Shown: positions 19,010 to 22,261 of the stretch, one piece after another | How positions within the stretch are numbered: the first letter of the stretch is position 1 | Layout: every line of letters begins with the position of its first letter | Source of the DNA: Rhodococcus sp. ARC_M6 | Lineage (GTDB): Bacteria > Actinomycetota > Actinomycetes > Mycobacteriales > Mycobacteriaceae | Assembly: GCF_022810305.1 (NCBI RefSeq) | Contig: NZ_JALGQH010000032.1 | Location: 1-64,000 of the forward strand | Reading direction: 5' to 3' | DNA: 64,000 bases | Position numbers and translations under genes: made by a program | Notes under the pieces: generated by a model | What the model saw: only the letters and a program-made list of their open reading frames with translations | What the model was told of the DNA's origin: nothing | Database searches by the model: none

Positions 19010-19131
19010 GCCACGCTCCTGCCGAGAGGAAATGGTTGTCTTTACTCATCATGACCGGAGATACGTGTTGGCCGCTACGTTCCTGCCGGTTTTGGCCATT
19101 TGTGTTGCATCTTGTCTAGAGGCCCCATTCC

Positions 19132-19182
19132 GAGCGAACGGTACGTCGATCGCCTTAGATCGACCGAAAGGTACGTTCGCTC
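19132..19182. promoter_or_regulatory. Nested inverted repeat upstream of the clpP pair
   Basis: Outer arms GAGCGAACG (19132-19140) and CGTTCGCTC (19174-19182); inner arms GTCGAT (19145-19150) and ATCGAC (19159-19164); GGTACGT also occurs as a direct repeat at 19140 and 19170. The element sits about 70 bp before the first clpP start, a plausible place for a regulator such as the HTH protein encoded at 20453-20821. Confidence 0.5.
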
Positions 19183-19249
19183 AGAAAGGGGATCTGCCCA
19201 CAGCAGACAATCAGGAGCCGAGCCGCACACCGCCGGTAGGAATGACCGC

Positions 19250-19858
19250 ATGACTACTTCAGCACCCACCGATACCGGCTACCGTGACCTGTTGACAGAT
19301 AGGCTCTTCCGCCAACGCACCATCTTACTTACCGGCGAAGTCAACGACGCCATGGCCGAACGCGTGTGTTCCGAACTGGTGCTTCTTGCGACCACCGACC
19401 CCAAGCGTGACATCGTCCTCTACATCAATTCGCCCGGAGGTTCGGTATTCGCGGGCCTTGCCATCTACGACACCATGAAGCTCGTTCCCAACGACGTGGT
19501 GACGGTCGCAATGGGATTCGCCGCCAGTATGGGTCAGGTACTGCTCTGCTCGGGTACAAAAGGCAAACGAATAAGCTTGGCGCACAGCCGAATCATGATG
19601 CACCAGCCCTCCGCGGGGATCGGCGGTACGGCGGTAGACATCGCGATTCAGGCCGAGAGTCTCGAGATGATGAAGCGTCAATCCCAGGAAATTCTTGCCG
19701 CTGAAACCGGGCGGACCGTAGAAGAGATCGAGACCGACAGTGATCGTGATCGGTGGTTCACCGCCGATCAAGCACGTGAGTACGGAATTGTCGATCGCGT
19801 CGTGACGGCGTTCGCCGAAATCGCGCCGCAGGCAATGTTCCCCAAGATCGGACTGTGA
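19250..19858 (+). CDS. clpP: ATP-dependent Clp protease proteolytic subunit, first of an extra pair
   Basis: A 202-residue serine peptidase subunit that forms a barrel and degrades proteins delivered by a Clp ATPase. The catalytic triad is present: Ser93 in GFAASMG, His118 in RIMMHQP, and the Asp of the [12 protein letters not shown] block. [19 protein letters not shown] marks the oxyanion region. The ATG at 19250 follows GGTAGGA. It overlaps the second clpP gene by four bases (GTGA). The pair is separate from the usual clpP1-clpP2-clpX locus and recalls clpP3-clpP4 of Streptomyces; that assignment is inference. Confidence 0.9.
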
Positions 19859-20451
19859 ATATCATGTCCCAGTACACGATTCCCAGCGTTATCGAACGAA
19901 CACCCACGGGCGAGCGGTCTTTCGACATCTTCAGCCGGTTGCTCAACGAACGTATCGTCTTTCTCGGCACGGAGATCGACGACGGAGTCGCGAACGTTGT
20001 GATGGCTCAGCTGCTGCATCTGCAGGCAGACAACCCGGACCGCGAAATCGGTTTGTACATAAACTCTCCCGGTGGTTCTACCACTGCGATGCTGGCAATT
20101 TACGACACTATGCAGTTCTTGAAACCCACGATCGCCAGCTACTGCATGGGGCAGGCGTCGTCGGCTGCTGCGGTGCTGCTCGCTGCCGGCACGCCGGGGC
20201 ACCGGCATGTTCTCGCCCATTCGCGGGTGCTGCTGCATCAACCGTCGACGCAAGGCAGTGGAACCATCTCGGATCTGGCGCTTCAGGCAGCTGAGATTAT
20301 GAGAATCCGCGAGCAAACCGAGACGATCTTGAGCAAGCACACCGGTCAGAGCGTCGAGCGACTCCGGAAGGATACTGACCGAGACCGGATCTTCACGGCA
20401 CGTGACGCGATCGCTTACGGCTTGGCCGACGTGCTTATTGAAGGGAATTGA
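19855..20451 (+). CDS. clpP: ATP-dependent Clp protease proteolytic subunit, second of the pair
   Basis: A 198-residue ClpP (GTG start at 19855 overlapping the previous stop; ATG 19864 is an alternative). Catalytic Ser103 in [11 protein letters not shown], His in RVLLHQPS, Asp in [32 protein letters not shown] matches the family well. The two subunits differ strongly from each other, as expected for a hetero-ring pair. The gene stops two bases before the end of a convergent HTH regulator gene. Confidence 0.9.
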
Positions 20452-20452
20452 C

Positions 20453-20821
20453 TCAGGCCGCCATCAGGACGGGCCCGGATATCGGCCGCGGCGTGTGTCC
20501 GAAGGAGATTGAATTGAGTGCCACGATTTTGTTTCCCGAGCGGAAGAGTAAGTGTTCCAACGGCATTCCGAGTGCATCACAGATAGAGCGCAAGATCTCC
20601 GAGGACGGTTCCTTCTTGCCTCGTTCGACCTCGGACAAGTATTGCTTCGACATTCCGACTTCGGCAGCAACATCGCCTAAGGTTCGATCCTGATCGCGCC
20701 TGACCTCACGCAGTACGCGTCCGTAAGCTTCTCGAATCAGCGGGGCCTTCTGTGCGGGCACCGCAGTTCCGGAATGCTCAGAAGCATTCCTGACCAGGGT
20801 AAACTTGTGCGGCGTGTCCAT
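20453..20821 (-). CDS. XRE-family regulator of the ClgR/PopR type with Ala-Ala C terminus
   Basis: A 122-residue protein with a Cro/C1 helix-turn-helix at about 30-85 (GRVLREVRRDQDRTLGDVAAE, VGMSKQYLSEVERGKKEPS). The VERGKKEPSSEILRSICDALG stretch is characteristic of ClgR-type activators of clp genes. The last residues are PVLMAA. In Streptomyces, ClgR and PopR end in two alanines that make them ClpP substrates, giving feedback control; the same end here next to a clpP pair supports that role. The gene is convergent with clpP and ends two bases from it. Target sites are not proven; the inverted repeat at 19132-19182 is one candidate. Confidence 0.82.
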   Translation of the reverse strand: MDTPHKFTLVRNASEHSGTAVPAQKAPLIREAYGRVLREVRRDQDRTLGDVAAEVGMSKQYLSEVERGKKEPSSEILRSICDALGMPLEHLLFRSGNKIVALNSISFGHTPRPISGPVLMAA

Positions 20822-20881: not shown

Positions 20882-21373
20882 TCAGCCGGTCTTGACGCCG
20901 CCGGCCAGGTACATGGCCCGCAGCACGAATGCCGCCTCGGGGCCGATGATTTCCCCGACCAAAGTCAGATAACGGTCGACGAAAGCTGCTCCATGGCCAG
21001 GCTCGTCATCCTTGCCGAGATGATGCGCAAGTTCGTGCAGGACAACAAGTTCCCGCATCGCCCACCGGCCGCCACGATCAATCGGAACGGCGATAACCTC
21101 ATTCGAGTAGTGGGCAGCAGTGTTGCCGGCGCGGGGGCGCACGGAAACCGAAACGCATGCACGGGGCCAGGTTTCAGCTACCCAATTCATTCTGAGAACC
21201 TGATCGCAATATGCCTGAACCGATTCCACGGATCCGAATTTGCGCTCCACCGGCAGGGTGATGGCGGAGCCCATTACCTCGACGGTCCGGAGGTTGCGTT
21301 CATCGGCACGATCGAACATACCGCGCACCAAAGTTTCTGCGTCGTAGACCGCGCTGCGCTGAGAATCTCTCAC
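20882..21373 (-). CDS. Zinc metallopeptidase-like protein (TIGR04338 type)
   Basis: A 163-residue protein with the zinc motif HELAHHLG (about 120-127) followed by GHGAAFVDRYLTLV, which resembles the third ligand region of SprT/WLM-type peptidases. The first half (VYDAETLVRGMFDRADERN) and the W-P-R-A-C-V-S-V-S-V-R-P-R segment fit the actinobacterial family named TIGR04338 as I remember it. Its GTG start overlaps the stop of the upstream DUF2786 gene (GTGA at 21370-21373), so the two are coupled. No signal peptide; a cytoplasmic role. Substrate unknown. Confidence 0.72.
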   Translation of the reverse strand: MRDSQRSAVYDAETLVRGMFDRADERNLRTVEVMGSAITLPVERKFGSVESVQAYCDQVLRMNWVAETWPRACVSVSVRPRAGNTAAHYSNEVIAVPIDRGGRWAMRELVVLHELAHHLGKDDEPGHGAAFVDRYLTLVGEIIGPEAAFVLRAMYLAGGVKTG

Positions 21374-22185
21374 GAGCTCAATTGTCCTCGCGCTCCGCCG
21401 ATTTCCGGCAGATTTCCCAGTCGAGCGGACTGGGCGGCGCGATCTCCGGCCTTACGCGCATGCGACGAATGCCCGGCGTCGGCGCGTCCACCGCCTTTCC
21501 AGGTTCCGCGAGCTTTGGAGTTGGAGGAGTAGTAGTTCTTGAGTTCAATTTCCTTGTTACGTAACACTAAAGCAGTTTCCGAAGACGACTCGGCGACTAC
21601 TTTTGTCTCCGTTTCCTGTTTGGTTTCCGTCAACCGTGCACCGATTCGCGACGCATACGCCATCTGAAAGTTGAGGCGAGCCGTCACTCCTGCTACCGGT
21701 TTACGAACTTGCGAGCTGACGCGACGACGCCCGCGAGTTTCGACGACAGTCCGGATCGTCGTCTCGCCTCGATATGCGCCCGAGCGAATGTAGGCGTCGG
21801 AATCACGCACCATTTGGAACAGCAGGCTCGAGTACAGGGCCTCACACACGTCGATGTCGCCGGCAAATCCGTACGCGAAGATCACCGCGCCGGTCTGCGC
21901 GATATCGCACTGCACGTCGTTGGCGGCGGCGATGGAGATGAACAACTGCGCGTAGGTACGCAGTCCGCGCTTGCCGGGTTCGCCGATGGTGATGAGCCGT
22001 TGAGTGGGCGTCGCACGTTTTTCCGACGACGCGGTGTGTGCCCGAGCAACCGCTAAGTCGATGGCGGAACTGGTGGCCAACCGCTGCGCGGCTGCCATGA
22101 AGGCTTCGCCCTCATGTGGATTGTCGGTGGATTCTGCTTGGCGAAGCAGCGCACCGACGCGGGTCAACATCTTCTCCGAACTCAC
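21370..22185 (-). CDS. DUF2786 domain protein
   Basis: A roughly 271-residue protein starting at GTG 22185 (VSSEKMLTRVGALLRQAESTDNP); ATG 22170 and an upstream GTG/ATG frame to 22251 are possible alternatives. Residues 5-45 are the DUF2786 helical motif (VGALLRQAESTDNPHEGEAF..AAQRLA), the middle is a predicted alpha/beta domain, and the last 60 residues are Lys/Ser/Gly-rich and probably nucleic-acid binding (KARGTWKGGGRADAGHSSHARKAGDRAA). It is coupled to the metallopeptidase gene by a 4-bp overlap. DUF2786 proteins are common in actinobacteria and phages, and have no settled function. Confidence 0.72.
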   Translation of the reverse strand: MSSEKMLTRVGALLRQAESTDNPHEGEAFMAAAQRLATSSAIDLAVARAHTASSEKRATPTQRLITIGEPGKRGLRTYAQLFISIAAANDVQCDIAQTGAVIFAYGFAGDIDVCEALYSSLLFQMVRDSDAYIRSGAYRGETTIRTVVETRGRRRVSSQVRKPVAGVTARLNFQMAYASRIGARLTETKQETETKVVAESSSETALVLRNKEIELKNYYSSNSKARGTWKGGGRADAGHSSHARKAGDRAAQSARLGNLPEIGGARGQLSS

Positions 22186-22261
22186 CGCCGCAGAGTACGC
22201 CCGCAGACCGACACGGCAGCTTATGCTGCTGGGGCACACGCTCACCCTCAACTCGGATCGT

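Follow-up and report, generated by a model that had tools for sequence, protein, structure and literature searches.

Does a clpP gene pair lying beside a ClgR/PopR-like regulator in Rhodococcus sp. ARC_M6 belong to a regulator/Clp feedback circuit of the Streptomyces type and, if so, where would the regulator act and which protease would destroy it? The window analyzed here is a 64,000 nt stretch (contig NZ_JALGQH010000032.1) of a 6.34 Mb genome, whose nearest named relatives are R. erythropolis, R. qingshengii, and other Rhodococcus (96–97% identity in ClpP-A). The initial annotation described an extra clpP pair facing a regulator that ends in MAA and proposed that the regulator turns on clpP while Clp destroys the regulator. 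The features on which this proposal rests are the following.

19250 to 19858, plus strand: ClpP-A, ClpP3-type within the ClpP1 lineage (PF00574, tree, catalytic triad, alignment).
19864 (ATG) to 20451, plus strand: ClpP-B, ClpP4-type of the ClpP2 lineage (PF00574, tree, catalytic triad).
20453 to 20821, minus strand: putative PopR-like activator of the ClgR family with a helix-turn-helix (HTH) domain (HTH_3 and ClgR model).
20456 to 20461, minus strand: the Ala-Ala end of the regulator (bases checked; present in 37 of 39 distinct tails).

Both ClpP proteins matched PF00574 in a profile search, each with an E value of about 1e-70, and clpP-B has an alternative GTG start at 19855 which overlaps the stop codon of clpP-A. 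The regulator is 122 residues long, ends in ISGPVLMAA, and lies tail-to-tail with the pair, the stop codons being 1 base apart. Its best NCBIfam match is ClgR (NF041677) at 82.4 bits, which is below the curated cut-off of 170, as are the matches of true ClgRs in the same six-frame search. The gene calls and the HTH_3 and ClgR matches thus agree with the regulator and the convergent arrangement first described. A TIGR04338 metallohydrolase and a DUF2786 protein adjoin the regulator at 20882–22251.

When the usual clpP1P2 was sought elsewhere in the genome, four ClpP genes in two pairs were counted, the second pair being on another contig with a ClpX-like gene (named by eye) about 1.3 kb beyond it. 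The pair at 19250–20451 is therefore the extra one, as had been supposed. A distinct ClgR is encoded on a third contig; it ends in RRLAAA and is 49% identical to the regulator over 76 residues.

The arrangement is not confined to this strain. The regulator (E 1e-24 or better) was found in 22 of 28 genomes of the genus and ClpP-A (E 1e-75 or better) in 21, the sole mismatch being a 74% complete assembly (G026) in which ClpP-A is cut. The same convergent order occurs in Antrihabitans, Nocardia colli, N. brasiliensis, Microbispora, Microtetraspora, and Streptomyces. In G027 (L227, contig C346) other genes, about 5.4 kb in all, stand between the regulator and the clpP pair, and the operator site described below remains before clpP-A. 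An order-wide search gave ClpP-A matches at E 1e-70 in 50 of 397 genomes; six of the 30 loci fetched from it hold the module (L041–L045 and L062) and the remainder resemble other ClpPs. The module is also borne on plasmids, in S. fungicidicus (L228, beside a gene for a SigB-type sigma factor) and, more distantly, in Prescottella equi (L229), so that it may move between strains. The plasmid search with ClpP-A gave a best Streptomyces match of 60%, and the best from Nocardiaceae among the matches listed was that of P. equi (47%). A different arrangement was seen in Micromonospora (L089–L093 and further loci), in which a lone clpP is immediately preceded, in the same orientation, by a ClgR-like HTH frame that does not end in Ala-Ala.

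Phylogenetic analysis tied the pair to the Streptomyces proteins. A ClpP tree of 79 rows placed ClpP-A together with Streptomyces ClpP3 inside the ClpP1 lineage (SH-aLRT 96, 26 rows) and ClpP-B with ClpP4 beside the ClpP2 lineage (SH-aLRT 80, 26 rows); the tree came from a short search and has several long branches. The names ClpP3, ClpP4, and PopR were given to the Streptomyces proteins from gene order and operator rather than from annotation. Among the regulators, 22 PopR-like rows stood apart from 15 ClgR and Micromonospora rows (93/81) in a core tree of 37 rows trimmed to about 78 residues. A larger tree of 49 rows, with additional columns and more divergent sequences, instead put Streptomyces PopR on the ClgR side (85/84). 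The two regulator trees disagree and lend only moderate support, and the regulator is likely, though not firmly, orthologous to PopR.

In Streptomyces, the two C-terminal alanines of PopR are required for its destruction by ClpP. The initial annotation had pointed to the same end on the Rhodococcus regulator, and comparison shows it to be conserved: among 39 distinct regulator tails from 47 module loci, the last residue is Ala in all 39 and the penultimate one in 37. Leu or Met precedes Ala-Ala in 33 tails, and residues further in are variable. A Val-Ala end is found in two of the three Streptomyces regulators seen, the third (S. fungicidicus) having Ala-Ala. None of 50 large non-overlapping open reading frames, taken mechanically from the window, ends in Ala-Ala. 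Ala-Ala is reported to be required for ClpXP degradation of Streptomyces sigma-AntA (PMC7142297) and, according to the accessible text of a review, likewise for ClgR and Lon (PMC9775585). Degradation of Streptomyces PopR in vitro by ClpX with ClpP1P2 has also been reported (PMC9765437). In the available text of two papers it is housekeeping ClpP1P2 that destroys PopR, and ClpP3P4 is a backup expressed on loss of ClpP1P2 (PMC9765437; PMC12607617).

The question of where the regulator acts concerns the region before clpP-A, in which three features were distinguished.

19123 to 19191, no strand assigned: nested inverted repeat with arms at 19123–19140 and 19174–19191.
19192 to 19208, no strand assigned: candidate conserved PopR-type operator, here ATCTGCCCACAGCAGAC, consensus GTCTGCCCACAGCAGAC.
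19237 to 19242, plus strand: possible -10 element TAGGAA of a putative leaderless promoter.

The nested inverted repeat noted earlier before the clpP pair is present; its arms are 18 nt long and 89% complementary, with a direct repeat inside. It had been taken, as segment 19132–19182, to be the site bound by the regulator, which together with the adjoining pair would then form a simple negative feedback loop. The repeat does lie before clpP-A, and both the erythropolis group and R. phenolicus retain it with half motifs 44 nt apart. Both half motifs were found in just 10 of 42 upstream stretches (the window, L012–L015, L018–L020, L088, and L082), nearly all of the erythropolis group, with L082 being R. 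phenolicus. They are missing from the other 32, including L016 and L017, although ClpP-A there is 94.6% identical, and where the repeat is missing a different site, 19192–19208, is conserved. Moreover, a near copy of the repeat lies elsewhere in the genome (L162, about 1500–1560, contig C17 of G000), 5' of a thiolase-like gene named by eye. The repeat was accordingly set aside as the operator of the module, and the reading built upon it is highly improbable. The repeat may well be the site of some other regulator. When up to 2 mismatches were allowed, its half motif was matched at 84 places, against 47 for the control, and a sample of 12 loci was inspected. A luciferase-like gene lies 5' of the repeat in the window and in R. 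erythropolis (L088); most other loci are too short upstream to test for this gene.

The conserved site, on which the initial annotation is silent, has the form GTCTGCC-N3-RGCAGAC and is centered about 50 nt 5' of the clpP-A start codon, most loci having A in place of G at one base of an arm. Operator scoring took in 39 of the 42 upstream stretches (without L075, L087, and L088). In all 32 close-family loci the best 17-mer match to GTCTGCC-N3-GGCAGAC within about 270 nt before clpP-A agreed at at least 12 of 14 arm bases, and seven more distant loci scored 9 to 12. Spacing was compared in a set of 29 distinct loci, from which same or nearly same strains (L015, L019, L020, L075, L087, and L088) and loci with a divergent operator or a longer leader (L035, L037, L040, L045, L062, L096, and L098) had been removed. 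The end of the site lies 41 nt (20 loci) or 40 nt (9 loci) from the ATG in every one. In the 60 columns 5' of the operator, the commonest base occurs in only 28–59% of rows at each column of these 29 loci. The operator columns of this set were found by pattern, which favors them, and none of the 29 failed; the 39-locus scoring is independent of the pattern.

Genome-wide searches point to the same site. A search of the 28 genus genomes for TCTGCC-N3-RGCAGAC-N40/41-ATG gave a single match in each of 22 and none in the other 6, and the reversed-pattern control gave no match in any of the 28. These 22 genomes are the same 22 that carry the regulator, and in 21 of them the ATG of the pattern is the ClpP-A start, G026 being the other. 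The PopR site of S. lividans is given in a review, in its accessible text, as TCTGCC-3N-GGCGAATCTGCC-3N-GGCAGA (PMC9775585), and exactly this site, in full, was found in S. fungicidicus with the same gene set. From these sequence comparisons, the operator of the module is most likely 19192–19208, which the segment 19132–19182 misses. The looser TCTGC-N5-GCAGA occurs at 12 places in the strain's own genome, equal to the reversed-pattern control, and no wider regulon is therefore claimed. On this contig its places are 19193 and 58917, neither of which precedes the regulator gene, so that no autoregulation through this site is claimed either.

The co-occurrence of operator and adjoining regulator across genomes also bears on the proposal that canonical ClgR, rather than the neighboring gene, controls the pair. 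ClgR is present in the genome and is related to the regulator. However, neither GTTCGC-N5-GCG nor CGC-N5-GCG, the ClgR site as given in the accessible part of PMC9775585, occurs on either strand of 19010–19249, and five near-complete genomes of the genus that lack the module (G002, G007, G012, G014, and G022) keep ClgR-like matches at E 1e-14 to 1e-16. Control of the pair by ClgR is very improbable.

Downstream of the operator, TAG or TAC begins 28–29 nt 3' of the site in 25 of the 29 loci, and neither was found at that spacing in the other four (R. phenolicus group). No convincing -35 element was seen when the region before clpP-A was searched by eye. A leaderless transcript would call for just such a constant distance from operator to ATG as is seen across several families, and the clpP-A transcript is probably leaderless, starting at or within 1–2 bases of the ATG.

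In Rhodococcus both active sites are kept, the Ser-His-Asp triad being intact in both proteins of the pair. It is kept in 47 of 47 ClpP-A rows (46 modules and the housekeeping protein) and in 42 of 47 ClpP-B rows (41 of 46 modules and the housekeeping protein). The ClpP-B losses are His to Gly in three Streptomyces (L096, L098, and L228), and both Ser and Asp in G036 (L040) and on the P. equi plasmid (L229). The alignment of ClpP-A shows no apparent N-terminal axial hairpin, and its other end carries a further feature.

19841 to 19855, plus strand: PKIGL, the C-terminus of ClpP-A, which resembles the unfoldase docking tripeptide IGF/LGF.

In 26 of 29 distinct ClpP-A tails the final 9 residues include [IVLMAF]G[LF], whereas none of 35 ClpP-B tails shows it. 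Of 176 other distinct ClpP tails, nine fit the less strict xG[LF], but only two once the seven that are themselves ClpP-A of truncated or distant modules are set aside. Variants of the PopR-linked tail are KIGL, RIGL, RMGL, and KMGF. In the unfoldases of the same genome the tripeptide is IGF in the ClpX-like protein and LGF in two ClpC-like ones. The second ClpC-like unfoldase (L232, contig C85 of G000) falls between the ClpA and ClpB models. It may belong to the ClpI class reported in the accessible text of PMC10149685, and is a possible partner of the backup pair. Among the solved structures listed as matches, M. tuberculosis ClpP1 was best by sequence, and four alignments end before the IGL tail. 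According to the available text of PMC9823225, the C-terminus covers the pocket in P. aeruginosa ClpP2 and has been modeled to do so in C. trachomatis ClpP1. By analogy of sequence, we tentatively consider that the ClpP-A tail might dock in the hydrophobic pocket of its own ring, confining unfoldases to the ClpP-B face and excluding ADEP-like antibiotics, a possibility that is rather doubtful at present. Such self-docking would account for the ADEP insensitivity reported for Streptomyces ClpP3P4 (PMC12607617, accessible text). If true, the backup core would be built to work when agents acting on the housekeeping pocket disable ClpP1P2.

An intact triad in both proteins and the further LGF-bearing ClpC-like unfoldase would also suit a specialized second Clp protease with its own substrates, responding to another signal such as a ligand or stress, in which Ala-Ala would serve ordinary turnover and no backup would be involved. 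The two Streptomyces pairs have indeed been called non-isofunctional in the available text of PMC12607617. Against this, the Streptomyces relatives are reportedly expressed upon ClpP1P2 loss, and the operator, found once only in each genome that has it in the genus search, speaks for a dedicated circuit, both of which are still compatible with extra substrates. Specialization to the exclusion of a backup role is therefore unlikely, and the module very probably represents a PopR/ClpP3-ClpP4-type backup protease system in Rhodococcus.

For Rhodococcus we infer a circuit of the following kind. Housekeeping ClpP1P2, with ClpX or another unfoldase, would constantly degrade the activator through its C-terminal LMAA, and this steady loss would keep the second clpP pair silent. 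Overloading, poisoning, or loss of ClpP1P2 would allow the activator to build up, bind GTCTGCC-N3-RGCAGAC, and bring RNA polymerase to a promoter that has no clear -35. ClpP-A and ClpP-B would then be switched on from a transcript probably starting at or within 1–2 bases of the ATG, and the new pair would take over and may assist in clearing the activator. Since ClpP1P2 is reported to destroy PopR in Streptomyces, such a circuit would sense the failure of ClpP1P2 and bring in a backup, rather than being a neighboring pair that limits itself. The feedback loop of the initial annotation is in this respect half sustained: PopR kinship, the extra pair, and, by comparison, the conserved Ala-Ala speak for it, while the place of the operator and the role of the neighboring pair as destroyer probably need correction.

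Judged by sequence, the locus is a conserved, authentic module of the PopR/ClpP3P4 type, a system already known from Streptomyces. No description of it in Rhodococcus was found in titles and abstracts of a mostly open-access literature, into which the 2000 and 2002 papers on PopR and the 2006 paper on ClgR entered through citations. The comparison extends the Streptomyces fail-safe circuit to Rhodococcus, Antrihabitans, Nocardia, Microbispora, and Microtetraspora, corrects the position of the operator, and offers a compact single-site version which is easily tested. It may bear on the response of such bacteria to Clp-directed antibiotics, and the docking-tripeptide tail would provide a simple, testable account of ClpP3P4 ADEP resistance.

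The module may finally be set beside the systems it resembles. Streptomyces PopR/clpP3-clpP4 shares with it the convergent order (S. fungicidicus), ClpP kinship, the operator arms TCTGCC-N3-GGCAGA, and, in S. fungicidicus PopR, the C-terminal Ala-Ala. Rhodococcus has one operator unit, whereas two are reported in S. lividans (PMC9775585, accessible text). In Rhodococcus the operator lies 40–41 nt from the ATG and there is probably no leader; the leader of S. fungicidicus is longer and includes a possible ribosome site. The catalytic His is kept in Rhodococcus ClpP-B but is Gly in the three Streptomyces ClpP4 seen; with the single operator unit, this suggests that the division of labor may differ from that in Streptomyces. 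ClgR (NF041677) has the HTH family and the Ala-Ala type of end in common with the regulator, and differs in its operator and in being a separate gene in the same genome. P. aeruginosa ClpP2 and C. trachomatis ClpP1, as far as described in PMC9823225, share with ClpP-A a short N-terminus without an apparent axial hairpin and a hydrophobic C-terminal tail; unlike theirs, the tail of ClpP-A ends in a near copy of the docking tripeptide.
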